The translations under genes and the position numbers were made by a program. A stretch of 64,000 nucleotides of DNA from a virus. Location: positions 1 to 64,000 of the IMG/VR virus record IMGVR_UViG_3300012920_000026; one strand, written 5' to 3'. Each line of letters opens with the position of its first letter. Positions within the stretch are counted from its first letter, which is position 1. The notes below the pieces were generated by a model. It ran no database searches. It was not told the DNA's origin and was given only the letters and a program-made list of their open reading frames with translations. Shown in pieces: positions 2,057 to 42,205 of the stretch.

Positions 2057-2060
2057 ACCT

Positions 2061-2092
2061 CAAATATAGTAATAATTTTTTACTAAAACAAA
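2061..2092 (-). promoter_or_regulatory. Class 1 promoter (TTTG-N20-TATATTTG), leaderless type
   Basis: On the minus strand TTTG (2089-2092), exactly 20 bases, TATATTTG (2061-2068), then AGGT and the ATG at 2056. This matches the Bacteroidota housekeeping promoter pattern (-33 TTTG, -7 TAnnTTTG). The TTTG directly follows the TAA of the gene at 2093-2281, so the 36-base gap is only promoter. With the usual distance from the -7 box, transcription would start at or beside the A of the ATG. Confidence 0.82.
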
Positions 2093-2281
2093 TTAATTGT
2101 AAGTTTTTGATATTACATCTAAAAATAAATCCGTATAAGAATCTACTTTATTAGGGTAATTACGTTTCATACGTTTAGCCCAATTTTGTGCCCACTCATA
2201 TGCGTGTTCTTTTTGTTTTTCAGTTTTACAACTACTAACAACTTTATTAACATAATTAAACTGTTCTCTTAAATTTAACAT
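2093..2281 (-). CDS. Small hypothetical protein (62 aa)
   Basis: Lysine- and aromatic-rich, probably all helical, starting MLNLREQFNYVNKVVSSCKT, with a central EWAQNWAKRMKRNY stretch. I do not recognise the family. It lies in line with neighbouring small genes on the same strand; the next promoter begins right after its stop codon. No transmembrane segment or catalytic motif is visible. Confidence 0.65.
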   Translation of the reverse strand: MLNLREQFNYVNKVVSSCKTEKQKEHAYEWAQNWAKRMKRNYPNKVDSYTDLFLDVISKTYN

Positions 2282-2287
2282 ATTTTA

Positions 2288-2440
2288 TTATTTAAAAATT
2301 ATAGTATATAATATTGAATGTATCCCTTTTAAATGAACGGGATCTATTAACAATCTAATTTTCTTCATTAGTCTATACCTTTTTATTAATCTAAACTTAT
2401 TAGTTGTGTGATATTCCTCTATTATGTTTTGTAATTCCAT
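2288..2440 (-). CDS. Small basic hypothetical protein (50 aa)
   Basis: ATG at 2440 to TAA at 2288. The product starts MELQNIIEEYHTTNKFRLIK and is rich in Lys/Arg with a hydrophobic C-terminal half. It fills the space between the cREC gene and the 62-residue gene on the same strand, and the spacing to the next ATG is only 6 bases. I see no homologous motif, so it is supported mainly by position and by an intact frame. Confidence 0.45.
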   Translation of the reverse strand: MELQNIIEEYHTTNKFRLIKRYRLMKKIRLLIDPVHLKGIHSILYTIIFK

Positions 2441-2463
2441 ATTGTAAAAATAAAAAAAATATT

Positions 2464-2859
2464 TTAATTTACCAAATGTTTTTTAAAATTTTCTAAATAT
2501 TTTTTTATATTTTCTGCACCCACAGGATTTGCAGAATGTACCAAATAAAATGGTATATCTTTACCTTCATCTAAACAATATTCACACAACCATCTACAAG
2601 CATCATATCCCGTTTTTTCTTTCAGACTACCATAATTAATATCACCCTTTTGATTTTCTGGTAAATATGCATCATACGAGAGATCATGATCGAAAGATAT
2701 GTGAGTTGGTAAACCAAATTTATTAATCGCAGAAATAAATTGATAGTAGTCTCTAACTATAACCCAATCGTTATCACTTTCATATAATGGATTAACTGTT
2801 AATTTAAATACACAATAAGGGGTCCTGATATCATCGAGAAATAGTTTATAATTTTTCAT
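2464..2859 (-). CDS. Cyclic-phosphate-processing receiver (cREC) domain protein
   Basis: The 131-residue protein has the marks of the phage/bacterial cREC family, receiver-like domains predicted to handle cyclic phosphate ends: KLFLDDIRTPY at the N terminus, a central HISFDHDLSYDAY, TGYDACRWLCEYC, and a C-terminal YLVHSANPVGAENI. The family is described as single-domain, and the length fits. Biochemical activity of the family is predicted from structure and context rather than well proven. It has its own class 1 promoter four bases upstream of the ATG. The position close to two tRNA genes is suggestive of a link to RNA ends, but that is inference. Confidence 0.85.
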   Translation of the reverse strand: MKNYKLFLDDIRTPYCVFKLTVNPLYESDNDWVIVRDYYQFISAINKFGLPTHISFDHDLSYDAYLPENQKGDINYGSLKEKTGYDACRWLCEYCLDEGKDIPFYLVHSANPVGAENIKKYLENFKKHLVN

Positions 2860-2863
2860 ATCA

Positions 2864-2895
2864 TAAATGTACGAAAAAATTTTAACTATAACAAA
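2864..2895 (-). promoter_or_regulatory. Class 1 promoter (TTTG-N20-TACATTTA), leaderless type
   Basis: TTTG (2892-2895), exactly 20 bases, TACATTTA (2864-2871), TGAT, then the ATG of the cREC gene at 2859. The -7 box differs from TATATTTG at two bases, but both spacings are the same as at 2061, 4856 and 42174. Confidence 0.68.
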
Positions 2896-2922
2896 AAAAA
2901 ATAAGAAATAATAAGGTTAATT

Positions 2923-3867
2923 TTAGGACATAGGTGAAAATATTTTATTTAAAAAAAGACCCGCTGGTTTGGTCCTACGGTATGCCCTCCAATAAGCTTT
3001 TTTATCTTCTTCATCCTCAGAATTTTTCCAATCGTCAATTGTATTATATTTTTTAGATATATTTATTAGATCTTCCTCAGTATCCAAATAGTTTTTATGA
3101 TGTTTCATATGAGAAGTTACATCTTCCCAAAATTCTTTACCTCTTTTAAATGCCTGCCAGTAAGTAAGTCTATCATCATTTTTCCACTCTGTCTTAGTTT
3201 TATATTTTAAAGCAATTTTTCTTAGAGTGTCGTCTGAGTTTAAATACTTCATACCTAAAGCACCTGTTTTAGCAATATTTAAAATTTGCCAACCATTATT
3301 CATATACTCAGTCTCATAAAAAGACTCTAATTCTTTAGCCTCTTTAAACCCAACTTTTTCTGGTGTAAGTTTTTTAAGTTTAAGACGTAGTTGTGGGTTA
3401 CTTTCTAAAAACTTACCTACTGCGGTTTTTTCTTGTTTTTTGCTATAAGAACAACTATCTGTTGTGTGTTCCAAATGTCTTCTATCAATATCACAAGACA
3501 ACCCTATATATGCTGCTATTGGTTTATCACCATCCGCATCAGTAAATTCATAAACATATATATCTTTTTCACCAAACCAACCAGCAGGTTCCATATCAGA
3601 AGTTAATTCTCGCCAAAATTTATTTCCCTCACCCTCATTATCTGTGTTCATAACCTTTACCCTATTCTTTGCTACATAATAACTATTTTTATCTACACTA
3701 TTTAACCATTCTTTTATAGTTCGATATTTTTTTGCTATCTTAATTAATTCGTCATTGGTGTACTTAACCTTTCTTCCAATTTTGTGAAATCTTGAACTTA
3801 ATCTCCTATCATAAGACTCTCTTTCTTTAATTTTTTTAAATTGGTTTTCAGTTATAATAATCTTCAT
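2923..3867 (-). CDS. GIY-YIG endonuclease with flanking DNA-binding-like repeats
   Basis: A 314-residue protein. The central part, about residues 100-200, is a GIY-YIG nuclease: YVYEF strand, AAYIGLSCDIDRRHLEH (the YIG half plus R and H), an ESFYETEY helix with the catalytic Glu, and GWQILNIAKTG at its end. Around it lie repeats of about 30-40 residues with the core A-x-K-Y-x-T-x-x-(E/D)-W followed by a Y-W-x-A-x-(K/R)-R stretch, near residues 45-70, 215-245 and 268-302; such repeats flank phage homing nucleases. The N terminus MKIIITENQFKKIKE resembles that of the 942-residue protein at 59461-62289. Probable role is a free-standing homing nuclease or a DNA-processing enzyme. Confidence 0.85.
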   Translation of the reverse strand: MKIIITENQFKKIKERESYDRRLSSRFHKIGRKVKYTNDELIKIAKKYRTIKEWLNSVDKNSYYVAKNRVKVMNTDNEGEGNKFWRELTSDMEPAGWFGEKDIYVYEFTDADGDKPIAAYIGLSCDIDRRHLEHTTDSCSYSKKQEKTAVGKFLESNPQLRLKLKKLTPEKVGFKEAKELESFYETEYMNNGWQILNIAKTGALGMKYLNSDDTLRKIALKYKTKTEWKNDDRLTYWQAFKRGKEFWEDVTSHMKHHKNYLDTEEDLINISKKYNTIDDWKNSEDEEDKKAYWRAYRRTKPAGLFLNKIFSPMS

Positions 3868-3871
3868 AATT

Positions 3872-3879
3872 ATAAATAT
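3872..3879 (-). promoter_or_regulatory. Class 2 motif ATATTTAT before GIY-YIG gene
   Basis: ATATTTAT followed by AATT and the ATG at 3867. One of fourteen similar sites listed in this annotation; the site is 4 bases from the start codon. Confidence 0.4.
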
Positions 3880-3903
3880 TTTGTCAAACCAAAAAAAAAC
3901 ATA

Positions 3904-4851
3904 TTATAATAAACTTTCTTTTATACGTTTTGCGGTAGTAATTAATTTAATTACACCCTTACTACCTAATTTTTGGTGTACGTCTGATAAATCAAATCGT
4001 TTAGGCATATATACCATTAGTACCCTTCCATTCAATTTAGTACTATCTAATTTTTTATATAGGTTAATTGCGTCTTTTTCTGCATCGTTGTCTAAAACTA
4101 TTATGACTTTGGCGGAAGCATTATCTATTAATTTTTTAAATAACAAATCATTTAGTACTTTACCCAACATAGGAATACTATTTGGTAGGGTGATATGATC
4201 GAATACACCTTCTACTAAATAAATGTTAGAATCCCAATTAATTTTTCCTTCATTAAATATAATATCCATTTTAGATACTTCAGGATTTTTATACTTTAGT
4301 TTTGTGTATTTTTCAAAACTCCTACCTAAAAAATAATTTATCTTACCTTCACTGTCATATGATGGAAATATAATTCTATTTCTGTAATCTCCTACGTTAG
4401 CGTAACCTAAATTATATTTTTTAATTAAGTCTATCCCTATATTTCTTTTACTAAGATATTGTAGTGCTTGTTGATATCCACTATCATTCCTTTCTATAGT
4501 TAGTGGTGTAAAATTTTTAGGTAATCCCGTTATAACCACCTTTTCTTTGTCTACTACAACCCTTTTATTATCAGGTATTACTAACTGATATTGTTTCATA
4601 TGGTTTTTATTACCATACTTCCTAATAAGTTTATTAAGTGTCCCATGTGTACCATAGGTTTCTGAACAAGCCCAACATTTATAAACATGATGATAGTAAT
4701 TAACTTCTAAATTACCTTTACCATCTCCACAGTCTAGTCCTTTAATTGATGAACATACAGGACAGTCAAAAGATATCTGACTTTTGTTTTCATAATGTTT
4801 TTTAGAATTACCTAATACATCTTCTAAGATTTCTACAACTAATTGTGACAT
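3904..4851 (-). CDS. DnaG-type DNA primase
   Basis: A 315-residue primase that makes RNA primers for lagging-strand synthesis. Zinc-binding residues are C30, C33, C59 and C62 (DCPVC and KCWAC), in the style of CHC2/T4 gp61 zinc fingers. The TOPRIM core is visible as IYLVEGVFD near residue 210 (acidic Glu) and VIIVLDNDAEKDA near residue 248 (D-x-D). It is short, as in T4 gp61, and has no fused helicase; the helicase gene is at 35115-36503. The start is fixed by a class 1 promoter four bases upstream of the ATG. The RuvC-like gene lies immediately upstream. Confidence 0.9.
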   Translation of the reverse strand: MSQLVVEILEDVLGNSKKHYENKSQISFDCPVCSSIKGLDCGDGKGNLEVNYYHHVYKCWACSETYGTHGTLNKLIRKYGNKNHMKQYQLVIPDNKRVVVDKEKVVITGLPKNFTPLTIERNDSGYQQALQYLSKRNIGIDLIKKYNLGYANVGDYRNRIIFPSYDSEGKINYFLGRSFEKYTKLKYKNPEVSKMDIIFNEGKINWDSNIYLVEGVFDHITLPNSIPMLGKVLNDLLFKKLIDNASAKVIIVLDNDAEKDAINLYKKLDSTKLNGRVLMVYMPKRFDLSDVHQKLGSKGVIKLITTAKRIKESLL

Positions 4852-4855
4852 TTCA

Positions 4856-4887
4856 CAAATATATGAATTTTATTTTAAAAATCCAAA
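4856..4887 (-). promoter_or_regulatory. Class 1 promoter (TTTG-N20-TATATTTG), leaderless type
   Basis: TTTG (4884-4887), exactly 20 bases, TATATTTG (4856-4863), TGAA, then the primase ATG at 4851. The TTTG directly follows the TAA of the RuvC-like gene, so the gap between the two genes is 36 bases of promoter. Predicts a leaderless primase mRNA. Confidence 0.83.
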
Positions 4888-5520
4888 TTAATTCCAGTCT
4901 CCACATTTTCTCATACCACCTAATACACACGCATATGCATCAGTCATATCATAATTTTCTTTAGTTAATTTGTTGTGTTTATCGTATATCCATACTACTT
5001 GTGGTTCTATCTCACTTACTTTTTGATGTATTATCACTTTTTTATCAATATCATATGGTAAACCCCCAAATAAAACTGGATTTTTCTTTTCTATTTCTTT
5101 GTCTGTATATCTTTCACCTGATTTTTTAAATAACCTAACTTGCATTAAATCTGGGAAAGCAAATTTTCTAGCATCGTAAGATGAAACAAATTCAGGTACT
5201 ATGTTTAAAACCTCATACACTGACCTACATATCATACCATTAAATCGTAATAACGTTGCGACAGTATTTACATTATTAGATCTTAATAAAGGTTCTTCAA
5301 TAAAAACCCTATCAATTTCAATATCACTATATTTTTCTAAGAAATCCTCTTCAAATATTTGAACCTTTTTTATTAAAGTTTCTATATTATTTTTAGGTTT
5401 AGGTTTAACTTTAGGTGTTATATGTGTTAACAATTGTAATTTACCATTATCACCTTTATCTTCAAAAAGTGCTATACCTATAGTTTTTGTGGACACATCT
5501 AGCCCTAGAATTCTACTCAT
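4888..5520 (-). CDS. RuvC-like Holliday junction resolvase
   Basis: A 210-residue protein with an RNase H fold. D8 lies in ILGLDVSTKTIGIAL (first catalytic strand), E75/E76 in VFIEEPLL (second), and the acidic pair in NYDMTDAYACVLGG (D191/D194) closes the site near the C terminus. RuvC-type enzymes of phages resolve branched DNA before packaging or during recombination, the role endonuclease VII has in T4. It sits with primase in a DNA-metabolism block. It ends one promoter length before the primase gene. Confidence 0.82.
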   Translation of the reverse strand: MSRILGLDVSTKTIGIALFEDKGDNGKLQLLTHITPKVKPKPKNNIETLIKKVQIFEEDFLEKYSDIEIDRVFIEEPLLRSNNVNTVATLLRFNGMICRSVYEVLNIVPEFVSSYDARKFAFPDLMQVRLFKKSGERYTDKEIEKKNPVLFGGLPYDIDKKVIIHQKVSEIEPQVVWIYDKHNKLTKENYDMTDAYACVLGGMRKCGDWN

Positions 5521-5558
5521 TATAAAACATTTTTTTAATTAAAGTTTTTACACTTTAT

Positions 5559-6857: not shown

Positions 6858-6868
6858 TTCTTTATAAT

Positions 6869-9117: not shown

Positions 9118-12042
9118 TTAATAAATATTTCCTCTATTTGTAACAATTTCTATAGGAATTGTCGTACTATAGGTAACACTTGTTATTATTTCCCCAACAA
9201 TAGGTGTATATAATTTTTGGTTTTTAACTCTATAAATTAATTTATCACCAGCAACCGCTTCACTTAAATCAATAATCAAAGAATAATTATTTTGTCCTAA
9301 TACATAAGGTGTAGATGCAATATATTTTACGTCCTTAAAATCTTCGTCACTTACATCTGTAACTTCTATAGTAAATAATCCTTCTTGACATATTGTAGGT
9401 GCATTAGGTATTACCCAAGATAACTCAGGTTTATTTGTTTCCACACTTCCAAATACACCACTAACAGGGTTAAAAAACACTTGAATTAAATCACCTTTTT
9501 TAATTTCTACTAAAATTATTAGTCTTCTAGGGTCTGTATCTGATCTCATATACTCTATATTATATGAAAGTTGATTACCATTTAAAGTTAACCCTACATC
9601 ACCTATTGCATCAACCGGTAAATAATACTCATATGTTTGTTGAGTAGTATTATAGTATAATTTATCTTCTTTCCCTTGTTGTCCTGTAGGTCCTGAAGAA
9701 ATAGGTTCAGTTACAGTATAATTATCAATTGATAATTCATTTGGATTACCGTCCTCCACAAATGCTAACGTAACCATTCTATCTGCTAATGTTGGTGTAA
9801 AAAAGTCTATATAAAATGCATTAGGTGTGTCTGTATTAGCACTATATTCAACCCCTTTTGATTGAATTACCCCATTATAAGACACTAAGGGATCTGATAA
9901 AGAGTTATAAAAAAATCTAGTGTCACCAGATTCAGTTTTAAATGAAGTTACTCTTAAATTACTGATGGTATTAGGTTCTCCTGGCTCATTAATGAAGGTT
10001 GGTTCGTCCGCTTCAAAAAGATTTAAAAAGTACCAATCTGTTTCGGGATTATATAAATTATATTCCGTACCTCTTTTATAGTTATTAACACTATTTCTTC
10101 TTCTACCTAATTCTTTTTGTATTAATGTTTTAATAGGATAATCAAAATATCCTTTTATTATAAATTCCCCCTCATCTATTTCATTTAAAGGTATTGTTAA
10201 TGTAGTACCACTTTCTCCACTAAATAAAGTATAATCAAAATCCTCTACTAAAACGGGATTATCATTAAATACACCTCTCTCACAATCAAAAGAATAAATT
10301 TCTGCAGTGAAATTCAATTTATTTGGTTGTATGACATTTGAAACGTCATTTAATATTAAGTCAAACTCAAAAGGAGTTCTATCACGATCACTTATATAAA
10401 CATATCTATCACAAGATAATGTCTTACTAGTTATAACATTTGGTAATCCCCATGTGGACGTAATACCTGTACTGATACCTGTTAATGAAAACCCTTCTTC
10501 TTCAAAATTACATTGTACCCCTAATCCGTTAGGTCTATGTATAATGTGTAAAAAATCTTTTAGATAATCAGCAACATATATTTTTTCATCAGGACCCATT
10601 TGTAACGCACCTAAACTAGCAGTAATAGGTAAGTCAGCCACAATAATACTATTATCTACCATTTCAGTAGAAGAAGTGTAAGTTAAATCATATTGTATTA
10701 TTTTATTGGATGCACCATCACTTACATAGAATTTAGAAGAATCGGATGAAAATTCTAAACCATAAGGTCCGTTTATAAAAAATGTGTCACCACTTATTAA
10801 TAACTCATTAGACAATGTACCACCTGTATTATTAAAATCTAATATTTGGATTAGGTTCTCATCATAAAATAGTGAAACTAATTTACTACTATCTGGTGAC
10901 GTTTTCATGTACCCCCTATTAGTATTATATGTAGTACCTGTATCACTTATTACTGCAGATGCTATACCACCACTCTTTACCCTAAACGAATAAAATTTAG
11001 AATCTCCACTAGTGTGTGTTATAACCCAATAATCAGTTTCATTAAAATGAGAACAAGCGGTAACTTTTTCACAAATAGGGGTACTAATTAAAGGCATATT
11101 TTTAAAAATAATTTTACCATCTCCACCTGCCCTATTCATATCCACTAAACTATATTCAAAACCATTAGGGTTACCTTCAAAGTCAGTAGTAAATATATAA
11201 TACTCATTACTATTTGGTCGAGGTACGATTATACTAGATTGAGTAGAAGTACCTGAACTTCTCAAATTAGCCCCTTGTTGCATAATAGTATTAGCACTAG
11301 TAAAAACTGTTTCACCATCAGTATAAAATAATAAATTACCTTCTTGATTAGATATACTACTACATCCTTCTTGTGATACTACTGCACCACTTATCACAAC
11401 AGGAGTTGCCCCACTTTTTATGGGATCGAAACTTATACCAGCTCTCTGCCCAAACAACCAATTATAATTTAATCTATCATAAGTATATTCATTATTGTCA
11501 AAAGTTACTGGACCACATAGTGTGTCATTACTACCGGAAATAGGTATTTTTCGTGTTCCTCTAGGTGTAAATTGTGGATAATCAAAACCATAAACATCTG
11601 ATCTTTCTTCATGTGAATACTTATCTTCATTACTTACAGGCTCCCAACCTAAATAAATCTTTTTTTCACTTATCGCACCATAGTGTTCATAAGTTTTACC
11701 ACCATCTATATATTGCATAGGGATATTTGCAAAAATTTCTTTATCAATTAAATTTTCATTTTCATCTAATTCATAATTAAATAAACATAGTTTGTTAATA
11801 GGTGCATCAGTTAAGGCGGTATTACCCATACTTTGTGGTACGGGTTTAAATATTAAATTTTTAACCTGTGAAAGATCATCCATAAAATATGCCCTATTAA
11901 CTGTAAATAATGAAGGGGATAAAGAACTAGCTAGATAGTTAATATTTAAATTAATATCTACTTCAGTTCTAATCTCGTTTTCGGTTACTACTTTACCATT
12001 AACACTAATTGGGTTTATTATATTTCCCTTTATATTCGCCAT
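9118..12042 (-). CDS. Tail adhesin/fiber protein with Bacteroidota-type beta-propeller
   Basis: 974 residues. About residues 200-545 read as a beta-propeller of the type found in secreted, PKD or gliding-associated Bacteroidota proteins: GNLLFYTDGETVF, TQSSIIVPRPNSNEYYIFT, DYWVITHTSGDSKFYSF, then repeated blades PYGLEFSSDSSKFYVSDG and LGALQMGPDEKIYVAD, closing with WGLPNVI. The stretch before it is a baseplate-facing domain, the stretch after it is beta-sandwich-like with Pro and Thr. No signal peptide is present, which fits a virion protein and not a secreted one. Likely acts in host binding; acquisition of the propeller from a host is inference. The class 2 motif lies 5 bases upstream of the start codon. 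Confidence 0.75.
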   Translation of the reverse strand: MANIKGNIINPISVNGKVVTENEIRTEVDINLNINYLASSLSPSLFTVNRAYFMDDLSQVKNLIFKPVPQSMGNTALTDAPINKLCLFNYELDENENLIDKEIFANIPMQYIDGGKTYEHYGAISEKKIYLGWEPVSNEDKYSHEERSDVYGFDYPQFTPRGTRKIPISGSNDTLCGPVTFDNNEYTYDRLNYNWLFGQRAGISFDPIKSGATPVVISGAVVSQEGCSSISNQEGNLLFYTDGETVFTSANTIMQQGANLRSSGTSTQSSIIVPRPNSNEYYIFTTDFEGNPNGFEYSLVDMNRAGGDGKIIFKNMPLISTPICEKVTACSHFNETDYWVITHTSGDSKFYSFRVKSGGIASAVISDTGTTYNTNRGYMKTSPDSSKLVSLFYDENLIQILDFNNTGGTLSNELLISGDTFFINGPYGLEFSSDSSKFYVSDGASNKIIQYDLTYTSSTEMVDNSIIVADLPITASLGALQMGPDEKIYVADYLKDFLHIIHRPNGLGVQCNFEEEGFSLTGISTGITSTWGLPNVITSKTLSCDRYVYISDRDRTPFEFDLILNDVSNVIQPNKLNFTAEIYSFDCERGVFNDNPVLVEDFDYTLFSGESGTTLTIPLNEIDEGEFIIKGYFDYPIKTLIQKELGRRRNSVNNYKRGTEYNLYNPETDWYFLNLFEADEPTFINEPGEPNTISNLRVTSFKTESGDTRFFYNSLSDPLVSYNGVIQSKGVEYSANTDTPNAFYIDFFTPTLADRMVTLAFVEDGNPNELSIDNYTVTEPISSGPTGQQGKEDKLYYNTTQQTYEYYLPVDAIGDVGLTLNGNQLSYNIEYMRSDTDPRRLIILVEIKKGDLIQVFFNPVSGVFGSVETNKPELSWVIPNAPTICQEGLFTIEVTDVSDEDFKDVKYIASTPYVLGQNNYSLIIDLSEAVAGDKLIYRVKNQKLYTPIVGEIITSVTYSTTIPIEIVTNRGNIY

Positions 12043-12047
12043 TATTT

Positions 12048-12055
12048 ATAAATAT
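12048..12055 (-). promoter_or_regulatory. Class 2 motif ATATTTAT
   Basis: ATATTTAT, then AAATA running into the ATG at 12042 of the propeller adhesin. Confidence 0.42.
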
Positions 12056-22909: not shown

Positions 22910-23808
22910 TAGTTTTTAATGTTTGGTTCTACTTGCCAAAATGTTAAATATGGTAAGTCAGATAATCCACTTTGTGGATTTAAATTTATTCCTCCCGGAC
23001 CACCATTAAATGCATTTTGCTCATTATTAGGTTCAAATCTGTATTTATATATACCATTATCATTTTTTAAAACTACTTTTAAAAATCTATTATCGTTTAT
23101 CTGATTGAAATTTAGATTATTAAAATCTGTAGTTTTTCTAGAATAATGTAAGGTAGATTCTCCTGTTTTAGCGTTTTGATATGTTACTTCTAGATATATG
23201 ACATACTCTTTATTTGGGGCGTTATCTACTAAATCTTGAAACCAATATATATAGTATCCTTCATGAACTGTTTCTGGTTCTAAAGTTGAATCACCCAAAA
23301 CAAAACTTACCGGACATTCATCTTTAGTTAAAACAAATCCATACTCATTTTTCTGATCATTTAGTATTTGTGTAAATATATTAGTAGATGCAATTAAATT
23401 ATTAGGTAATACATTTGTGTCATAATAACTAAATCTAATAAAACTATTCATAACACTATCGGTTCTACAAAACAAATCATCAAATCTAAAACCTATTTCA
23501 CCATAATAAGAAGAACCATTATAACTTGGACTGTTACTATAAAAATAACCGTTATTTGTTTTTCTAAAGAAATTTATATTGATTTTGAACTTTCTTATAA
23601 TATTCCAATTATTATCACAAGGGAAAAATCTAACTTTTTTATAGTCGTCTATTGGATTTATTGCCTTTTCTATTTCGTCATCAATTAATTTAGTCTTTAT
23701 TAATTCTGCATTATCCACAGGTGAAAAATCTAAATTAACATTTAAATTAATTGTAGTTCCTGATATATTTATATCTCTAATAGGTATTTTAAATTTATTA
23801 ACAGACAT
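22909..23808 (-). CDS. Virion structural protein (299 aa)
   Basis: Starts MSVNKFKIPIRDINISGTTI. Beta-rich with many aromatic and Asn residues, no catalytic motif. It overlaps the upstream 661-residue gene by 11 bases and the downstream 256-residue gene by one base, typical for co-translated subunits of one complex. Its place in the baseplate or fiber is unknown. Confidence 0.6.
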   Translation of the reverse strand: MSVNKFKIPIRDINISGTTINLNVNLDFSPVDNAELIKTKLIDDEIEKAINPIDDYKKVRFFPCDNNWNIIRKFKININFFRKTNNGYFYSNSPSYNGSSYYGEIGFRFDDLFCRTDSVMNSFIRFSYYDTNVLPNNLIASTNIFTQILNDQKNEYGFVLTKDECPVSFVLGDSTLEPETVHEGYYIYWFQDLVDNAPNKEYVIYLEVTYQNAKTGESTLHYSRKTTDFNNLNFNQINDNRFLKVVLKNDNGIYKYRFEPNNEQNAFNGGPGGINLNPQSGLSDLPYLTFWQVEPNIKN

Positions 23809-25783
23809 CAGTAATTGTTTTTTGATTTAATGACGAATAATCTGCACAACCACCAGGAGTATCCCTCTCACCTAATTCATAATTGCCAGAATAAGTAATA
23901 AATTTGATATCAACATCGGTAGGTTGCAACTGAGGATCTAATAAATCTACTGGTATATTACTACCTAATAAATTTATTAAATCATCCGGTGTAAATTCAA
24001 AAAAAGTAGGTTCTGAGCACAAAGCAGTGAATTTATCTTTCTCAGATGGTAATGTTACTTGTTGAGTTGTGAAGTCCACAACACATGGTGGATCTTGTCT
24101 ATAAAGATAAAAATTCTTATCAAAATATATATAATGTGCACCACTTTCAAACGGATATTCAACCCCTCTACCATTACCATCAATAAATCCAATTTCTAAT
24201 AAATCTCTCCATCTATAAATTATAGAATCTGTGGTTAATGGTTTTGTTTTTAGTGGTCCTGTTGGTAAACTTTCTGTGTTAGCAGAGTATTTTAGATGTG
24301 CATAATCAGGTATATTTAGTGTGTTTTGTGAATCACCTTCCTCAACATATTCAGAATATTCTCTTATAGTAATTGGAGTATGAGGATTATAAATATATCC
24401 TTCTCTTTTATCTACTTTTTCTGAATCAATAATACTTAAATTATCTCTATAAACAGTATTAATTCTATGAAAAACTTCTTCTAATACAATTTCACTTAAG
24501 TTTTTTTCATTATATTCTACAATATCATTATCAAACTCAAGATTGCTCTCATCTATATTTTCAAAATAATTTTGTGGGTAATTTGGTTTTCCTCCAGGAT
24601 AATTAGAACCAACTGCCCTTATATTATAATTTACTTTAACATCTTGTTCTGTTTCATAACCACCAATAATTGGCATCCAAAATCTATTTTTTATTTTATC
24701 TGGTAGATTTTTTTGTTTGTCTCTAAAAAAAACATTTTTAATGTCACTATAATCTGTATCATTATCATTTTTTACAATAGTAAAAAATAATGTACTTAGT
24801 GGTCTACCTAAGTTATCTCTTAATCCTTCTACATCAACATCTTTTTTAAAATAAAATCCCGCTTCCATATCATCAAAATAATTTACACCATATGCAGAAG
24901 GATAAATGTCATAGTCTTTTTCTTCTGTAGTTAAACATTTTAATCTTCTTACGTAATATTCAGAAACTACGTTATCTATTGACCTTTTTATTGTAGATAT
25001 TCCTTTACTGAAATCTATGTCTTGTGGATTTATATCTATAACAAATATTCTATTTAGATTATTATTTTCTTCGTCACCTAACTTAACAATATTAAAAGTT
25101 CTTTCATTAAGATATAAACCATTATTAGTATTATCTATAAAATTATAAAGTCTAATTTCATCGTCTTCTTCTAATGCATGATTTATAGGTGTTTTGAAAT
25201 AAACATACTCTCTATTATTTATGGTAACTGATCCCTTATCTATTATTTGTAAACCGTCTTTTAAACTTATGTTTCCGTTATTTTCTACTAAATTAATATC
25301 TCTACTTTCAAATGGGTAAGTAATTTTCAAAAGATAGTTCTCTTTACCATCATAATCAATCATAGACAATCTATCAAAACCAGGGTCAAAAGTTTTAAAT
25401 TGACATCTAGATGACTCATTATCATTTTGTATTTGAGCAACATCAGTATCGGGCGGTTCAAAATAACCATACCAACCATCAGTAACAAAAATACTATTAG
25501 ATCTAATAAGTTCACTAGTTACAACACCATTATCCTCAAAAATCCTTATATTTTCATTATATAAACAATTACTAACAACACTATTTAATACACCATAAAA
25601 TCTATATATGTGTGATTCTTTTCTTTCTTTCTCAAATTGTTCATAACTATTAACAACCGCCTGTTCATCACTTAATGGTAATAGTTTATTACTATTTTCT
25701 AAATTTAAAGGTATGTGTTCAGTCCTATTAACTGATCTAACTGATTTTTCTTTATTTAATAATATTTTAAATTTATCTTTCAC
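23798..25783 (-). CDS. Virion structural protein (661 aa), GTG start
   Basis: No ATG fits the N terminus: the frame starts with GTG at 25783, right after the class 2 motif, and the next Met is far inside. The product begins with a basic helix (KDKFKILLNKEKSVRSVNR) and continues with a beta-rich body. GWYGYFEPPDTDVAQ near residue 100 and the acidic C-terminal half resemble large baseplate proteins, without a definite family match. It overlaps the next gene by 11 bases and follows the 1547-residue gene by 16 bases. Confidence 0.65.
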   Translation of the reverse strand: MKDKFKILLNKEKSVRSVNRTEHIPLNLENSNKLLPLSDEQAVVNSYEQFEKERKESHIYRFYGVLNSVVSNCLYNENIRIFEDNGVVTSELIRSNSIFVTDGWYGYFEPPDTDVAQIQNDNESSRCQFKTFDPGFDRLSMIDYDGKENYLLKITYPFESRDINLVENNGNISLKDGLQIIDKGSVTINNREYVYFKTPINHALEEDDEIRLYNFIDNTNNGLYLNERTFNIVKLGDEENNNLNRIFVIDINPQDIDFSKGISTIKRSIDNVVSEYYVRRLKCLTTEEKDYDIYPSAYGVNYFDDMEAGFYFKKDVDVEGLRDNLGRPLSTLFFTIVKNDNDTDYSDIKNVFFRDKQKNLPDKIKNRFWMPIIGGYETEQDVKVNYNIRAVGSNYPGGKPNYPQNYFENIDESNLEFDNDIVEYNEKNLSEIVLEEVFHRINTVYRDNLSIIDSEKVDKREGYIYNPHTPITIREYSEYVEEGDSQNTLNIPDYAHLKYSANTESLPTGPLKTKPLTTDSIIYRWRDLLEIGFIDGNGRGVEYPFESGAHYIYFDKNFYLYRQDPPCVVDFTTQQVTLPSEKDKFTALCSEPTFFEFTPDDLINLLGSNIPVDLLDPQLQPTDVDIKFITYSGNYELGERDTPGGCADYSSLNQKTITDVC

Positions 25784-25788
25784 TATAT

Positions 25789-25796
25789 ATAAATAT
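25789..25796 (-). promoter_or_regulatory. Class 2 motif ATATTTAT within a 16-base gap
   Basis: ATATTTAT, then ATATA and the GTG start at 25783. The gap to the upstream gene is only 16 bases, so if this is a promoter, transcription would begin at or past the start codon; this argues for some other role at this site, or for a non-standard start. Confidence 0.35.
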
Positions 25797-25799: not shown

Positions 25800-28700
25800 C
25801 TAAGTTATTTTTATATAACCGTTAGTATTATTACTACCCGCAACATATTCTAAATAAACATTATATGTACCAGTTTGTTTTATTGTAAAGTTAATTACTT
25901 CTGTAACTGTACTAGTAAACGCAAATAAAGGTCTACTAATAAGAGTTTCTGTATTTGGTTGTGAACCATAAGTTGATATTACGTTTGTATTTACAGGAGT
26001 TGTAGTATTATCATTATAAATTATAAATTTTCCTGTACCCGTTGTTAGGAGTGGCATACCAAATAAGCCTGATCCTACTGATCCACTACTAATCTCTATT
26101 TTTAATTCTGCATTAGGTGAAGTAACAATTATCTTAGTAGGACTAGCCTGACCAAAATTATTTGTTTTATCAGTGGAAAACGTATTAGTATTACCTACCT
26201 CATTAACTCCCGTTATTTGATATTTAAGATTGTTTGGTATTGAGGACGCACCTCCACTATTTTTACCAACTGCTGCATTTCCATTTGGTAATGATATTAC
26301 ACCACTATTACTTAAATCTGATATTGCAGCACTTTCTGAAGCACTTGTAATAACTGCCTCACCTAAACAACTTCTAAGTGCAGTAAATTTATTTTGTCCA
26401 ATATCTCTAAATCCTGGTTGGTTATAAGTATTAGAACCGGCTTTTTCATTGTTACCTAATCCTTGTAACGTAACTTCATCAATCTTATCTGCAAAATATT
26501 TAGAAACTAATCTATGTAATGCACTTTTACCTGGCACTAAACCAAAATAATGATAATATGGTGTCTGTGAGGTTGAATATTTTACCCCAAAATTTTGTGG
26601 GTTTGTTTTATCATTAATATTAGACATATTAGGAAAATCTAAAAATTCACTAGGAAATGGGTTATTCCCTCCTTTCCAACCTGTACCATAGAAAAATTTA
26701 CCATTACTTTTTAAACCACATCTATCTCCTGTCACAAATTCATCACCATCATTAATACTATTAGGTATTAAAACACCATCTATAGAGTAATTTACTGATG
26801 GTATTCCTGATGTAAACTGTGCAGAAGGATAAACATCATAAAGATTATCAAATTCGTTCGATCCTGGTCTCATATAGTTTACTTCTAAATCGTCATTCTT
26901 AAAAGTACTAAACCTCCTACAGAAATAATCTCTAGTTTCTGAGTCATGTTCATAATATGTAAAACACTGTCCAACTTCCATACCTAAATCGTTACTATCA
27001 ATTAAATCTATACCTACTTGTGATTGTACCACACCTGCAGTAGTATTTAAACAATTTACCCTTGTACAACCAAAAGAAACATAAGCTCTAAGATTTACTA
27101 TTCCATCTTTCTCTTCCACAGAATTAACTACTATAGGATTAGCATTTTGATTTTCAAAATCATATTTTAAACCTTCCTCACTTAATCTAGAAGTTGTGGG
27201 TTCTAAATCATTAATTACAAATGGTACATCATCTATATCGCAGTATACTGAACTACCCATTTCGACTAAATCTGTAGGATATAATAAATTTGCTTTATAA
27301 TTTCTAGGTAAAGTATTATATGCCGCATCAGGTTTTTTCATAACTGATGCGTAATATATTTTACCGTCTTCCCACGCAATAATACCGTGTTTTATATTTT
27401 TATCGTTATAACTATTATGTTGTGTACAAGGACATCTATTAGTACACCCTTGAACCGCACTTTGGCAAGGATCTATACATCCAGTAGGGGGACAACTTTG
27501 TGGTTGAAGGTTGTTAGGTATGTCTTCACCTGGTTGTGTCTCAGGATCGGGTGGGGATGTAATAAAATCTGCATCTATTGAACCTGCATTATTGTTACCT
27601 AAATCTGTTTGGCAACCAACAGAGGATCTAAAATATTCTTCTTTCTCTACTCGATAAACAGTATTACATTTATTTTTATGATGTGAGTGTCCACCTCTAT
27701 TTTCCCACACACTCAATCCAGTTACGGGATCTTCAACCTCAACATAATTAGGTCTACCATGTGGACCAGGAAACGTTTTAATAGTTTTAGAATCATTTAT
27801 TCTAATCTCTATATTTGCATTATCATCAAAAGCTTGAAACACAAGTGGATCGTCGAATCGTAAAGTACAAGGGTTGGATGCCGTATCCACACCTGTAAAT
27901 TTTAAAGATTCTTTAGCATTTAGTATTGCAATATCTTCTAATACTTGCGCATTACCATTAGGTACGTATTTACCAAACCATGGGGTAACATACCTTTTTG
28001 ATCCTCTAATTCTCACTCTACATCCATTTACATCAATAATTTCTTCTTGATTTGCAGTAGTATTTTCAACTATAACCCTATATTTGTTATACGTATTTGG
28101 TGTCTGGTAGTCAGGTGCACAATCAAAATCACAGAATTTATCTTTCTTTAATTGTCCTCTTTTCTTTTTTCTCTTTTTAAGTTTATATTTTCTTTTTATT
28201 AATGGAAAGTATAACGTACCACTAACCCAATCATTATAAAATTCAAACCTTATCATATTTAACCAATTAGCGACACCCTCTAATTTACACTTAACCCACT
28301 CTTTGATTTGAGGTGTGCTACTTCCAGAACACTCTTTACAACTATTTATTTTAACAAATGTTTCATTACATACATTTCTCGCCAATGGTGTAAATATTAG
28401 AGAAGGTCTAATTGTGGGAAATGCATTATCTTCAGGACAATTTAACGCAATTAAATTAATTTTTGTACAACAAGAACGACAACAACCTCTATCCTTATTA
28501 TCTGATGGTGTACCATCAATACACAATGCACAATCATTTGTTGGGCAACCATATTTTCTATCATTACCACCACTAGTACAATTTTCGTTATCATTAGCAG
28601 TTTGACCTCCTGGCCCACTTATATCTCTACAACAACTATGTCCAGGATTGGTATCTGGAAAACATGTGTCATTACAACGTTTACATAACCACCCACCAAA

Positions 28701-32739: not shown

Positions 32740-33123
32740 TTAAAGTGTTATTTCTAAAATATCAGAAGATGCGAAAGTACCATCTACTACTGTATATTTT
32801 AATTCAACTATTATTAATTCTTCAATGTCATTTTTTTTAAAATCTATACTATCGACAACTAAATTTGGTATATATTTTTTTATTGTCTCATTTAAATTGT
32901 CTTTAATTTCACTATGTGTTATGTTATCATTAGGTTCAAAAATAAACTTTTTTAAATCACTACCAAAATCTGGCATATACAATCTTTCTCCTTTAGTAGT
33001 CAATAAAAGATGAAGTAAATCAGCCTTAATTGCATCTTTATCAGTTTGATTTAATTTAAAGTAAAAACCACTCTCACTGTTCTTAAAAGGAAAATCAATA
33101 TTTATAAATCTTTCTTCTGCCAT
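32740..33123 (-). CDS. Baseplate wedge protein, gp25/GPW family
   Basis: 127 residues. The core LLTTKGERLYMPDFGSDLKK followed by FIFEPND is the gp25/GPW signature; the GERLYMPDFGS loop is diagnostic. gp25 nucleates the sheath on the baseplate and binds the gp6/gp53 wedge core. The start is just after a class 2 motif, with the gp6 gene directly downstream. Confidence 0.92.
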   Translation of the reverse strand: MAEERFINIDFPFKNSESGFYFKLNQTDKDAIKADLLHLLLTTKGERLYMPDFGSDLKKFIFEPNDNITHSEIKDNLNETIKKYIPNLVVDSIDFKKNDIEELIIVELKYTVVDGTFASSDILEITL

Positions 33124-33129
33124 ATGTAT

Positions 33130-33137
33130 ATAAATAT
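33130..33137 (-). promoter_or_regulatory. Class 2 motif ATATTTAT before gp25
   Basis: ATATTTAT, then ATACAT and the ATG at 33123. First gene of the structural run 33123 to 5559, so this is a good candidate for the promoter of that run. Confidence 0.48.
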
Positions 33138-38080: not shown

Positions 38081-39130
38081 TTATTGATCCGCATATTCTA
38101 CGGGTGCATCAATATGTTCTCCTTCTTCTATTGTAAAATCTACTTCTTCACCGACACTATCAAATACTGTAGACCAATATTCTTTGTAGTCAGATTTATA
38201 AGAATCAATAGCTTTCTTATCGTCTTCAATAAATCCGTGTGTTGTCGCCAGTATTCTACAATCAGCATAACCTAAACCATTCATATGGTTTTTGTGTATA
38301 CCCACTTTAGTTCTAACTGCGAAGTTTACTTTACGTCCTTTATTTGTTGCATTTAATTTAGATACTCCTGCACTTTTTTGATTCCCAAAAAGGAATACTA
38401 ACGCACAAGATAAATAAATTGATTGCCCTCCTTTAGGTTGAATTCTGGGTTGACTGAATGGATTATCGGGTAACTCTACCCAAGGTTGGTTAACAAATAC
38501 CATTGTATTAGTATAAGGAGAACTCTCTTTACGAGAAGAGGTTATCCTTTGAGCCATTCCCATACCCCATTTTTCTGATATTACTCTAGCAGTATGTTGG
38601 TTACCACCTTTACCTTCAAAACTCATTTTACAAGGTATTGTTCCTATAGAGTCCCACAAAAATACAATATCATGTGGTATATCTCCTTTTGATTGTGCAT
38701 CTAAAATTTCAGTCACATATTCGAAAGCTTGTTCAATGTATTCAAATCCTAACTTATATAATAAGAATCCATCCCAATAAGCTTCTATTTCACCAGTACT
38801 TTCATCTACCTCTTCAATATATTCAGTCTCTAAACCCATTTGTTTTGCGTGTTCAAAACTAAATTTTTGTTCAGTTATAATGAATATTGGTAATATACCT
38901 TTTTTCTGCGCATCTACTGCAGTTTGTATTAGTGCAGTTGTTTTTCCAGTATCTGAATGTCCTAATAACATATTAATTTGACCCATAGCAGGACCAGGAA
39001 TTCCTGTCGCTTTTTGAAATGATTCTCCTAAATCAAAGTATTTCTGTTCTTTATACTTATCACTAGAAGAAAACTTTTTACGTATACTAGAAAAATCGCT
39101 TGTTTTTTTCTTAATTGGTTTCTTAGCCAT
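38081..39130 (-). CDS. uvsX: RecA-like recombinase (T4 UvsX-like)
   Basis: ATPase for strand exchange. Walker A LLGHSDTGKTTALI near residue 56, a Glu-rich segment (FIITEQKFSF), Walker B HDIVFLWDSIG near 152, and loop MSFEGKGGNQHTARVISEKW with L1/L2 elements, then FVNQPWVELPDNPFSQPRIQ. The frame opens further upstream to a Met at 39157, but that start lies inside the terminator hairpin at 39143-39171; the Met at 39130 (MAKKPIKKK) is the more likely start, giving 349 residues. It is flanked by the gp32-like and 5' nuclease genes. Confidence 0.88.
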   Translation of the reverse strand: MAKKPIKKKTSDFSSIRKKFSSSDKYKEQKYFDLGESFQKATGIPGPAMGQINMLLGHSDTGKTTALIQTAVDAQKKGILPIFIITEQKFSFEHAKQMGLETEYIEEVDESTGEIEAYWDGFLLYKLGFEYIEQAFEYVTEILDAQSKGDIPHDIVFLWDSIGTIPCKMSFEGKGGNQHTARVISEKWGMGMAQRITSSRKESSPYTNTMVFVNQPWVELPDNPFSQPRIQPKGGQSIYLSCALVFLFGNQKSAGVSKLNATNKGRKVNFAVRTKVGIHKNHMNGLGYADCRILATTHGFIEDDKKAIDSYKSDYKEYWSTVFDSVGEEVDFTIEEGEHIDAPVEYADQ

Positions 39131-39142
39131 ATATTTTTTTTT

Positions 39143-39171
39143 AAAAAAATAGGTCACCTAAAAAGATGACC
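39143..39171 (-). terminator. Terminator after the gp32-like gene
   Basis: On the minus strand GGTCA and TGACC form a stem around a T-rich loop, followed by TATTTTTTT. It lies between the single-strand binding protein gene and uvsX and would allow higher expression of the former. Confidence 0.65.
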
Positions 39172-39193
39172 CACTTTTAACATTTATATTAAA

Positions 39194-40090
39194 TTAAAAT
39201 GGTAAATCATCACTACCACCGGTTTCTAAATTAGTCACTGTAACTTCATCATCATCTTCAAATGAAGATTCAGAGTTCTGAGTCTTAGTTTCCTCTCTTA
39301 AGTAAGTTATTTCTTCTTCTAATGAAGCAGTTTCTGATTCTTCTCTTTCTTCTTCTGCAACATATTTACTTTGTTCTGAATCCCAAACTGGAGTCATATT
39401 TTTTGCTACAATCTCTAAATATTCTGTAGATTTTTTAGCGTAAACATCTCTAAATGTTTCTTCGTTGTTAAACCAATCGTTAGCCTTAGTAGTATCTTCA
39501 GTTAACATACTTACATCATCACACATAATAGATGTTACTACACTCCACCCTTTTTCATTACGGTTAGTAGTTATAATAATATCTCTACCTTCTCTAGCAT
39601 CTGTAATATCACCTTTTAATTTAAAAAGTGGCATTAACTTATCCATAACACCATTACCTGTGTAATTGTGTTTAAATCTCCAAAATTTAACACCGTGATC
39701 TTCGTTATCTCTATCAATACCTTTTACCACATAAAATTTACGAGGAGTATACTCTCTAGCCATTTCTTTAGCTTTTTTACTACCCTCCATTAATAAAGCT
39801 TCTTTTGCTTCATACATTGGGCAATGTTCGCCATCATTTAATTTATTACAGTAAATTTTTTCATATTTACCATTCACTTGTCTTTCGTAAAAATATACTT
39901 CTTCGAATGGAGACTTACCATCTTTTGCAGGTAAAATTCTAAATCTTCGAGTTGCATTTTTTACACCTTGTTGAAGTTTTTCAGTGAAATACTTCTTAAG
40001 TCTATCTTCATTAGATAACTTAGGTTTTTTTGAACTGTTTTCAGTATTACTTTCATACTGAGACAAAATTGCGTCTAAACTGTTACTCAT
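39194..40090 (-). CDS. Single-stranded DNA-binding protein, T4 gp32-like
   Basis: 298 residues. The N-terminal part has a basic helix (RLKKYFTEKLQQGVKNATRR) and the OB-fold core with the zinc region (C81, H89, C90 in YCNKLNDGEHC); T4 gp32 uses one His and three Cys, so at least one ligand differs here. The C-terminal third is acidic and ends in DDLPF, like the tip of bacterial SSB proteins (DDDIPF in E. coli). It has a class 1 promoter at 40123-40154 and a terminator on each side, so it is a stand-alone transcription unit. Confidence 0.88.
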   Translation of the reverse strand: MSNSLDAILSQYESNTENSSKKPKLSNEDRLKKYFTEKLQQGVKNATRRFRILPAKDGKSPFEEVYFYERQVNGKYEKIYCNKLNDGEHCPMYEAKEALLMEGSKKAKEMAREYTPRKFYVVKGIDRDNEDHGVKFWRFKHNYTGNGVMDKLMPLFKLKGDITDAREGRDIIITTNRNEKGWSVVTSIMCDDVSMLTEDTTKANDWFNNEETFRDVYAKKSTEYLEIVAKNMTPVWDSEQSKYVAEEEREESETASLEEEITYLREETKTQNSESSFEDDDEVTVTNLETGGSDDLPF

Positions 40091-40122
40091 TTCTATTTTT
40101 TTTAAATGTTAATAATTATTTC

Positions 40123-40154
40123 TAAATATAATAAGTTTTTTCTTAAAAGTCAAT
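40123..40154 (-). promoter_or_regulatory. Class 1 promoter (ATTG-N20-TATATTTA) with 32-base leader
   Basis: ATTG (40151-40154), exactly 20 bases, TATATTTA (40123-40130). The surrounding GTATTGACTTTT is also found at the promoter at 51873. Here the start codon of the gp32-like gene lies 32 bases further on, so this mRNA has a leader, unlike the four genes with only four bases. Confidence 0.7.
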
Positions 40155-40159
40155 ACATG

Positions 40160-40197
40160 AAAAAACCAATAATGAACAAATATAGTCATTATTGGTT
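40160..40197 (-). terminator. Terminator after the acidic protein gene
   Basis: On the minus strand AACCAATAATGA and TCATTATTGGTT form a perfect 12-base stem with a 10-base loop, followed by TTTTTT-rich sequence. It ends transcription of 40225-40956 just before the gp32 promoter. Confidence 0.85.
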
Positions 40198-40224
40198 AAT
40201 ATGTCAAATAATTTTTTTAATTAT

Positions 40225-40956
40225 TTAATAATCTTCGTCATCCTTATCATAGTCAAAAGAATTTTTTATTTCTGTTGCACTATAATCATCTACGTCTTTT
40301 TGAGTTATGGTGTATTCTTCCTCTTCTTTACCCCCAACATCATATCCTTCTTTATCTGACCAATAATCAGTTAAAGAAACACTATATGGAAAAGAATCCA
40401 TCGATCTCATTTCTAATCTTTCTACCGGTGTTGGGTTTCTATCTGCGATTTCTTTTTCTAATCCATCTATTTTATTAATAACTTGATCCATATCACCTAC
40501 CTTACCTTCTAAATCACCTAATTTACCTAATAATTCATCCATTTTTGCAGTCATCCCCTCTATTTCTGTTCTTGTTTGTTCTGCTTTATCTACTATATCT
40601 GTAACATCTACTTCGACAGTTTCTTCACCACCTTCCTCAGTTGCGAATTCATCTTCCACTTCCATACCTTCTTCACCTGCAAATGGATCTGTTTCACCTG
40701 ATCCTTCTTCAGTATCTAAATCTACAGTTTCTTCTTCACCACCTTCTTCTGCAAATGGGTCTTCAGTAGTCTCTTCTTCAGTGTCTACTTCTACTGTATC
40801 TTCAGCGGGTACAGGATCTTGTTCATAAAGTTGTTTAGCACCTAATAAAAGTTCGTCAGTATCATCACCGCCAACTTTATCTTCCATATAAAACGTATAT
40901 TCCAATAGTTCCATATGTCTTTTTAACTCTTCCGATATTAATTTTTTCTTATCCAT
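40225..40956 (-). CDS. Acidic virion-associated protein with leader-like N terminus
   Basis: 243 residues. The N terminus MDKKKLISEELKRHMELLEY resembles the tagged starts of other proteins in the window, and LYEQ near residue 43-46 gives a possible L-x-E cleavage site. Residues about 50-125 are repeated acidic blocks such as EETTEDPFAEEGGEEETV, followed by a coiled-coil stretch (about 130-170) and a Tyr/Asp-rich C terminus. A scaffold, capsid-internal or chaperone-like role would fit, but none is proven. Confidence 0.65.
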   Translation of the reverse strand: MDKKKLISEELKRHMELLEYTFYMEDKVGGDDTDELLLGAKQLYEQDPVPAEDTVEVDTEEETTEDPFAEEGGEEETVDLDTEEGSGETDPFAGEEGMEVEDEFATEEGGEETVEVDVTDIVDKAEQTRTEIEGMTAKMDELLGKLGDLEGKVGDMDQVINKIDGLEKEIADRNPTPVERLEMRSMDSFPYSVSLTDYWSDKEGYDVGGKEEEEYTITQKDVDDYSATEIKNSFDYDKDDEDY

Positions 40957-40961
40957 TTTTT

Positions 40962-41144
40962 TTATATTAATAATTGTCTTCCGTCAGTAGTTTTATAAAC
41001 TTTATTAACTCTTTCCACAATTTCTTTACCATCATTAATTAAACATTCTTCCCCTTCACACTCTTTTTCTTCATTAACTTTAAGAAATTCATTAAGTGAG
41101 TCTTCTAAATCTTTAGTTCTTTGTATGTCTTTTTTATTATCCAT
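40962..41144 (-). CDS. Small acidic hypothetical protein (60 aa)
   Basis: Starts MDNKKDIQRTKDLEDSLNEF. Helical and acidic with a Cys pair (CEGEEC) near the middle. It lies 5 bases before the acidic 243-residue gene and 31 bases after the 137-residue gene. A class 2 motif is at 41161-41168. I do not recognise it. Confidence 0.6.
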   Translation of the reverse strand: MDNKKDIQRTKDLEDSLNEFLKVNEEKECEGEECLINDGKEIVERVNKVYKTTDGRQLLI

Positions 41145-41160
41145 ATTAAGGTCTTTTATT

Positions 41161-41168
41161 ATAAATAT
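41161..41168 (-). promoter_or_regulatory. Class 2 motif ATATTTAT
   Basis: ATATTTAT followed by AATAAAAG, 16 bases upstream of the ATG of the 60-residue gene. Confidence 0.38.
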
Positions 41169-41175
41169 AAGAATT

Positions 41176-41589
41176 TTAAGAAAAATTACGTTTAATATCT
41201 ATAATAGTTAATTCATTTTTTTTAGTTATCAACATTTTATTTTGGTATTTATCCCATTCTATCTTATGTTCTTTATGATTTAAATTACCTGTTTCTCCAT
41301 TACTTTCACTTTCAATCAATTTATTAAGTGCATTAATAGTATAAAAACACTCTCCCTTTTTGTGTGTTATGATAGTGGTAGGGAAAAATGATTTAGTATT
41401 TATTTTTTTTCCATCCCTTAAATATAATCTAAATGTTAAAATTTTTTTACCTATTTCTTGCGGGGAAGTATAAATAAATAATTTTTCTTTAGGTATTTTA
41501 AACCTTTTTTCTATATAATCACTGAAACCATCTATTCTATCCTCATCAACAAATGATGCTAGTGTGATTATTTTTGTCTGTTGTTCCAT
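41176..41589 (-). CDS. Hypothetical protein (137 aa), overlaps upstream gene
   Basis: Starts MEQQTKIITLASFVDEDRID. Two parts: an alpha/beta N-terminal half, and a central FYTINALNKLIE followed by a WDKYQNKMLI strand that I recall from T4-like phages, without a known function. It overlaps the 207-residue gene by 44 bases in another frame; the start ATG is well supported because MEQQTKIITLASF begins a regular domain. Function unknown. Confidence 0.62.
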   Translation of the reverse strand: MEQQTKIITLASFVDEDRIDGFSDYIEKRFKIPKEKLFIYTSPQEIGKKILTFRLYLRDGKKINTKSFFPTTIITHKKGECFYTINALNKLIESESNGETGNLNHKEHKIEWDKYQNKMLITKKNELTIIDIKRNFS

Positions 41590-42169
41590 ATCTATAAATG
41601 TATGGTATGATTTTTTTATTGTTATAATCTACACACCCTATACATTTATTAAATATTTCATTTTCAGATAAAGTTACCTTAGAAAGTTGATTTATTTTAT
41701 GTTTAATTTTATCTATATCTAAACCTAAAAATAATAATATTTTTAAGTCTAATCCAAAAACTAAATTTTTATCGTATAAATATACCATATCATCATTAAT
41801 AATTGTAATAATATTATTTAATGAATATATTTTTCTTATTATTTTTCTTATTTTTTTAGGATTATCATGTATTAAATCAACAAAAACATAACTATTTTTA
41901 TTATCTATAAAATCCAAACATCTGTGTTGAAATTTTTTTAAGTCTATTTCTAAATCTACTTTTCTTTCATTATTATTAAAAGTCCAAAAAGTTTTATCGT
42001 CAATTTTCTTATTTAGTATTGAAACATTTTCTTCACCATAAATTTCTTTAGTTGTATCCCAACCAATAATTAATGTTATAAAATTATCGTTTATTTGTGA
42101 AATATTTTCACAAACATTATATTTTTTATCTGAAAATTTATCTTTAGTTACTATATTTCCAATATACAT
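41546..42169 (-). CDS. Hypothetical protein (207 aa) with its own promoter
   Basis: Starts MYIGNIVTKDKFSDKKYNVC. A central FITLIIGWDTTKE strand and KTFWTFNNNERKVDLEIDL region resemble an unknown family seen in T4-like phages (recollection only). The last 20 residues are coded in the 44-base overlap with the next gene. A class 1 promoter lies four bases upstream of the ATG, which suggests early expression. No catalytic motif is visible. Confidence 0.66.
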   Translation of the reverse strand: MYIGNIVTKDKFSDKKYNVCENISQINDNFITLIIGWDTTKEIYGEENVSILNKKIDDKTFWTFNNNERKVDLEIDLKKFQHRCLDFIDNKNSYVFVDLIHDNPKKIRKIIRKIYSLNNIITIINDDMVYLYDKNLVFGLDLKILLFLGLDIDKIKHKINQLSKVTLSENEIFNKCIGCVDYNNKKIIPYIYRYGTTDKNNHTSIIC

Positions 42170-42173
42170 ATTA

Positions 42174-42205
42174 CAAATATACTATTTTTTTATGTTAAAA
42201 ACAAA
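42174..42205 (-). promoter_or_regulatory. Class 1 promoter (TTTG-N20-TATATTTG), leaderless type
   Basis: TTTG (42202-42205), exactly 20 bases, TATATTTG (42174-42181), TAAT, then the ATG at 42169. The TTTG directly follows the TAG of the hub gene, giving the third 36-base gap that is only promoter. Confidence 0.83.

Follow-up and report, generated by a model that had tools for sequence, protein, structure and literature searches.

Why should a virus place its promoters at one fixed distance from the start codon? The question is raised by a 64,000-nucleotide stretch of viral DNA, referred to below as the window, which is the first 64 kb of the 77-kb virus record IMGVR_UViG_3300012920_000026. 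The record covers part of the genome of a T4-like phage. Several genes on the minus strand of the window are preceded by TTTG, 20 bases, a -7 box, four bases and ATG, an arrangement in which transcription would begin at the start codon itself. The answer developed here is that the phage group to which the record belongs very probably combines housekeeping promoters of a Bacteroidota host (sigma-ABfr) with a phage-specific box, and places both either at zero leader or at a leader of about 7 or more nucleotides (nt).

Host-type promoters in the window

The four sites reported in the first-pass annotation are all exact to the letter; they lie on the minus strand with a spacer of 20 and a gap of four bases in each, and in three of them TTTG directly follows the upstream stop codon, as had been noted. 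A pattern search adds a fifth site on the same strand. A sigma-A type promoter, TTTG-N20-TATATTTG followed by AGGT-ATG (2061..2092), precedes the gene at 1886-2056, a 56-aa open reading frame (ORF). The same elements followed by TGAA-ATG (4856..4887) precede the gene for a DnaG-type DNA primase (3904-4851; phrog_47), where TTTG abuts the stop codon of a RuvC-like gene (4888-5520), and, followed by TAAT-ATG (42174..42205), the gene for a conserved 207-aa protein (41546-42169). TTTG-N20-TACATTTA followed by TGAT-ATG (2864..2895) stands before the gene for a 131-aa cyclic-phosphate processing receiver domain (cREC) protein (2464-2859; PF20274). The fifth site, TTTG-N20-TATTTTTA followed by CAAT-ATG (promoter 2445..2476; 2438-2476 with the ATG), lies before a predicted 50-aa ORF (2288..2440), a candidate coding sequence. 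The -7 element TAHHTTTG is exact in three of the five sites and differs by one letter in the other two (TACATTTA and TATTTTTA); the -33 TTTG stands at N20 in all five and also accompanies the leadered sites of relatives. For three of the window genes, the promoter exactly fills the gap between stop codon and ATG.

The pattern TTTG-N20-TANNTTTR-N4-ATG is found five times in the window against 0.05 expected from dinucleotide shuffles (largest shuffle 1), and a stricter pattern with one mismatch allowed is found four times against 0.09 expected. The excess extends to the relatives.

Distances between box and start codon in related phages

A promoter matrix was built from leadered sites alone (at least 11 nt from the start) and scanned over 1495 non-redundant upstream regions of genes called in eleven related contigs, with start codons taken from a simple gene caller and conservation. 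Of its 96 matches, 32 lie at N4-5 (24 at N4 and 8 at N5), compared with 2 at N0-3 and 4 at N6-14, and most of the remainder at N15-25; the shuffles give an expectation of 0.6 at N4-5 (largest value 3 among 50). Counted by gene families, there are 19 at N4-5 versus 1 at N0-3, 2 at N6-10 and 2 at N11-14. Eight scrambled motifs with the same letters produce no N4 peak of comparable size. Only two box positions are in use in the phage group, one at 4-5 nt before the start codon and one no closer to it than about 11-15 nt, with hardly any leaders of about 2-6 nt.

The proposal that the spacing is tighter than promoter function needs is upheld by these data, the peak recovered with the leadered-only matrix being sharp and the neighbouring distances nearly empty. 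The gap of exactly four bases holds in all window sites; across the group, however, the spacing is 4-5 and not always 4.

A second, late-type box

Counting 8-mers with no prior motif reveals that TATTTATA and ATATTTAT are enriched about six- to sevenfold upstream of genes, with two humps in their distances. A matrix for this box, TATTTAT(A/T), gives 364 matches, 92 at N3-6 (about 4 in shuffles), 6 at N7-9 and 184 at N10-20. The box was picked and counted in the same contigs; the distance profile played no part in picking, and it recurred in other loci, namely 80 SSB-centred loci, mostly on other contigs, with 26 matches at N3-6, one at N7-9 and 76 at N10-17. At leadered late sites the bases 3-5 nt past the box are A-rich, which is the place that the ATG occupies at leaderless sites. 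No -33 element accompanies the late-type box. The first-pass annotation regarded the rule as a feature of early promoters; the host-type promoters do show it, but the late-type box is placed alike, so the rule is not early-specific.

In the window, all on the minus strand, TATTTATA stands at N3 before the ATG of the gene at 2923-3867 (314 aa; box 3871..3878), at N4 before the ATG of 9118-12042 (12047..12054) and the GTG of 23798-25783 (25788..25795), and at N5 before the ATG of 32740-33123 (33129..33136); the variant TATTTATT stands at N3 before the ATG of 58573-59439 (59443..59450). Leadered late-type boxes precede the genes at 48260-51724 (N14; 51739..51746), 53825-55033 (N15; 55049..55056), 59461-62289 (N15; 62305..62312) and 63394-63861 (N15; 63877..63884). 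The position of the box before several genes of structural size fits a late role.

Recognition of the TATTTAT(A/T) box probably depends on a gp55-like late sigma factor. Such a factor is not encoded in the 77-kb fragment and occurs in larger contigs: gp55-like proteins of 232-247 aa are encoded in G005 (L138:15808-16545), G016 (212380-213078), G018 (26642-27346), G019 (170744-171487) and the cultured, T4-like Flavobacterium phage vB_FspM_immuto (hereafter immuto; 78174-78872), where the protein is annotated as hypothetical. The first four match phrog_234 with E values of 1e-4 to 9e-4, and the match to the solved gp55 structure (PDB 7d7c) is weak (E 0.028), so that homology to gp55 appears likely on weak support. 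Another candidate for the late sigma factor, phrog_12791, was rejected for lack of a match, and one phmmer search with T4 gp45 found no clamp.

Conservation in orthologous genes

The N4-5 spacing upstream of the primase gene is kept in 10 of 11 contigs, namely the window contig, G003, G005, G007, G008, G009, G010, G016, G018 and G020, down to about 50% protein identity, with the spacer sequence diverging. In the three most distant of these (G016, G018 and G020), the box is degenerate (TACATTTT, TATATTTT and TACATTTA). The primase N-terminus aligns from the Met at the predicted start, and conservation of N-termini supports the start codons. For the 207-aa gene, leaderless spacing is kept in six contigs and in L017 and L018, at 40-70% identity; the cREC orthologue in G010 is preceded by TACCTTTG-N4; and the promoter of the 56-aa ORF also precedes its homologue in G003, G005 and G007, so that for each of these three genes the arrangement is kept in one or more relatives. 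The 56-aa ORF (1886-2056) and the adjacent 54-aa ORF (1719-1883) are paralogous (phmmer 6.8e-7), and G003 seems to retain one of the two, behind the same promoter.

TATATTTG also lies three bases upstream of the annotated start of the primase gene in Mel-JY01 (L190:32020-33003), a phage recorded on Microcystis. This phage encodes a gp55-like protein, and its use of Shine-Dalgarno (SD) motifs (69/207) differs from that of the window group.

Predicted transcript starts and proposed mechanism

In Flavobacterium johnsoniae, transcription has been mapped to begin 4 or 5 nt beyond the -7 element at many promoters (PMC6847099), and 81% of the leadered phage sites carry an A at the fifth position after the box. 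With N4 spacing, a start 4-5 nt past the box would place +1 on the A of ATG; by the same box-to-start rule the predicted start is the A of the start codon or one base before it. Judged from the DNA alone, programmed leaderless transcription from both promoter classes appears to be the best reading, and for the host-type promoters, where the first-pass annotation had already suggested it, it is the interpretation best supported by the leadered-only matrix peak, the A at base 5 and the conservation in orthologues. The label "early" for the genes behind host-type promoters derives from promoter type and gene function.

Several points weigh against this interpretation. The primases of G019 and of immuto lack the arrangement. 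Because the distance in F. johnsoniae is 4 nt at some starts and 5 nt at others, transcripts of some N4 genes could begin with the U of AUG, and the start codons themselves rest on a simple gene caller and conservation. The promoters sit within strings of codirectional genes, so every leaderless gene may in addition be covered by longer transcripts that begin further upstream. Finally, the relative G007, whose primase is 90% identical, sits in a Prochlorococcus single-cell assembly, which casts some doubt on the host.

Under leaderless transcription, host RNA polymerase with sigma-ABfr (-33 TTTG, -7 TAHHTTTG) would read the TTTG-N20-box sites, and leaderless mRNAs would result for the primase, the cREC protein, the 207-aa protein and the small ORFs, both promoter classes being limited to a zero leader or one of about 7 or more nt. 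Translation would be the simplest cause of this limit: a ribosome that does without SD pairing may either start on an AUG at the very 5' end or thread in a leader of sufficient length, and a leader of 2-6 nt would suit neither mode of entry. A zero-length leader is probably tolerated because SD motifs are depleted in the phage group, and it would save space; compactness probably contributes, since the promoter can then occupy the entire gap between two genes.

Alternative explanations

A doubtful extension of this scheme holds that, in hosts with SD-blind ribosomes, there are two programmed modes, leaderless and leadered, across early and late genes, and that phage bS21 shifts host ribosomes toward one of them during infection. 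Ribosomal protein bS21 is a subunit that helps to hide the anti-SD sequence in Bacteroidota ribosomes. Its gene is found in longer relatives of the window phage (G001:110191-110349, G003:69126-69284, G005:179275-179433, and also G016, G017 and G019) and in Mel-JY01, and bS21-encoding phages of Bacteroidota have already been described (PMC9723584).

Leadered promoters might also come to lie near start codons merely because the gaps between genes are tiny, the start site being elsewhere and the fixed distance a by-product of compaction. The gaps are indeed short, and TTTG abuts the preceding stop codon in several cases. Compaction, however, would be expected to spread the distances smoothly, whereas N4-5 is sharply occupied, N6-14 nearly empty and N15-25 filled, and it would not impose one profile on two different boxes; we consider it quite unlikely.

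A further alternative concerns the late-type box alone: the TATTTATA sites could be T4 late promoters firing on the opposite strand, given that TATAAATA is the exact reverse complement and that the phage group has T4-like genes and encodes a gp55-like protein. Three observations make this very unlikely: the distance is fixed relative to the start codon of the gene that lies downstream on the TATTTATA strand, TATAAATA read in the direction of that gene shows no such peaks, and the A-rich stretch 3-5 nt past TATTTATA at leadered sites lies in the sense of the gene.

It is highly improbable that TATATTTG or TATTTATA near the ATG is an AT-rich ribosome-binding element for SD-blind ribosomes and no promoter box. 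The sites are located where such signals are found, and the bases just 5' of the AUG do tune translation in F. johnsoniae (PMC6847099), but the -33 TTTG that accompanies the box at N19-21 is the geometry of a DNA promoter, the spacing is common to two different boxes that also occur 10-25 nt upstream, and letter order matters, scrambles giving no peak. Chance matches, to which an A+T-rich motif in a genome of 71% A+T and isolated full matches within genes might point, have virtually no probability left, being refuted by the excess over shuffles in the window (5 against 0.05) and in the relatives (32 against 0.6) and by retention in orthologues.

Genome context and host

The T4-like gene set of the window includes a gp32-like SSB, a UvsX-like recombinase, a DnaB-like helicase, the DnaG-type primase and a baseplate wedge protein; genes for tRNA-Arg(TCT) and tRNA-Leu(TAA) lie at 1572-1736. 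Among related IMG/VR contigs, the longest close relative measures 198 kb and the longest distant one 298 kb. For the 207-aa protein, Pfam and PDB searches gave chance-level matches only, and its AlphaFold model (mean predicted local distance difference test score 40) was too poor and was not used for a fold search; the phage collection held no cultured relatives of this protein or of the SSB.

One further exact match to TTTG-N20-TATATTTG (40177..40208, minus strand) falls within a 12-bp stem-loop that has a run of U residues after it, and no gene start is nearby. It was rejected as a promoter; it is a probable terminator, left out of the leaderless count, and the terminator scan itself gave no call there. 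The probable SSB promoter is instead TTG-N20-TATATTTA (40123..40153, minus strand), which is conserved across relatives and has a leader of about 28 nt. This leader (40091-40123 in the window, and in relatives) is conserved, A+T-rich and reminiscent of that of T4 gene 32, which is autoregulated.

The most likely host belongs to Bacteroidota, because a type IX secretion sorting domain (PF18962) is present in relatives (G003, G016 and G019), SD motifs are depleted below background (59/1495 genes of the phage group versus 13/25 T4 genes) and the promoters have the Bacteroidota form. The relative filed within the Prochlorococcus single-cell genome is 84 kb long (L180, contig QCKH01000004.1). Promoter matches resembling those of the relatives occur in that assembly on contigs C4, C9 and C14, which are phage-like in appearance. 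The phage is probably a co-sorted free virus, and the assembly may be mixed.

Implications and comparison with known systems

The ribosomes of Bacteroidota work without SD sequences, and their way of selecting start codons is still under study. Since the phage group is widespread and appears to place two unrelated boxes at zero-leader distance and to avoid leaders of about 2-6 nt, it offers many natural test cases, with the prediction that a bare 5' AUG works, a leader of about 7 or more nt works and short leaders fail. The rule would also be of practical help in annotating the start codons and transcription units of this phage group, for which the late-type box, together with its candidate sigma factor, is a first candidate for a late promoter.

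The host-type sites have the same two boxes as the sigma-ABfr promoters of Bacteroidota (TTTG / TAnnTTTG), a spacer of 19-21 and an A at the expected start (PMC6847099, PMC9723704). In these bacteria short leaders are infrequent: 3.7% of 5' untranslated regions (UTRs) are shorter than 10 nt in Bacteroides thetaiotaomicron (PMC7366714), 5.5% leaderless is the figure for Flavobacterium psychrophilum (PMC9723704), and in F. johnsoniae 13% of leaders do not exceed 10 nt (PMC6847099). In the phage group, by contrast, about one-third of the predicted promoters within 45 nt of a start lie at N4-5, a comparison that is indicative only, as the measures differ.

Immuto has a related primase (33%), the gp55-like protein and TATTTATA before genes. 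None of its called starts has a TAHHTTTG box within 18 nt, and it shows no N4 peak; because immuto lacks the sigma-A arrangement, the rule does not extend to every Flavobacterium phage. Immuto genes (L176-L179) instead have in common another motif, TATATTTAGGTATCAATAAT, which lies about 15-25 nt before their starts and is probably an early promoter and leader element.

The late-type box resembles the T4 late promoters (gp55/gp33/gp45) in being an 8-bp TATA-type box with no conserved -35 element, an A+T-rich stretch just downstream and a gp55-like sigma factor (PMC2988020). It differs in that the box is TATTTAT(A/T), not TATAAATA, which shows no positional peak, and in that a quarter of the predicted late-box sites within 45 nt have leaderless spacing.

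In the open-access papers searched, we found no description of leaderless placement in Bacteroidota phages. The closest parallels are the leaderless genes of Deinococcus-Thermus (PMC12340547) and Actinobacteria, where, as here, the box stands at a fixed distance from the start codon and there is no 5' UTR; there the sigma consensus differs, whereas the present case concerns a virus with two promoter classes and hosts that do without SD pairing. Leaderless genes with a fixed distance between box and ATG are thus already known.

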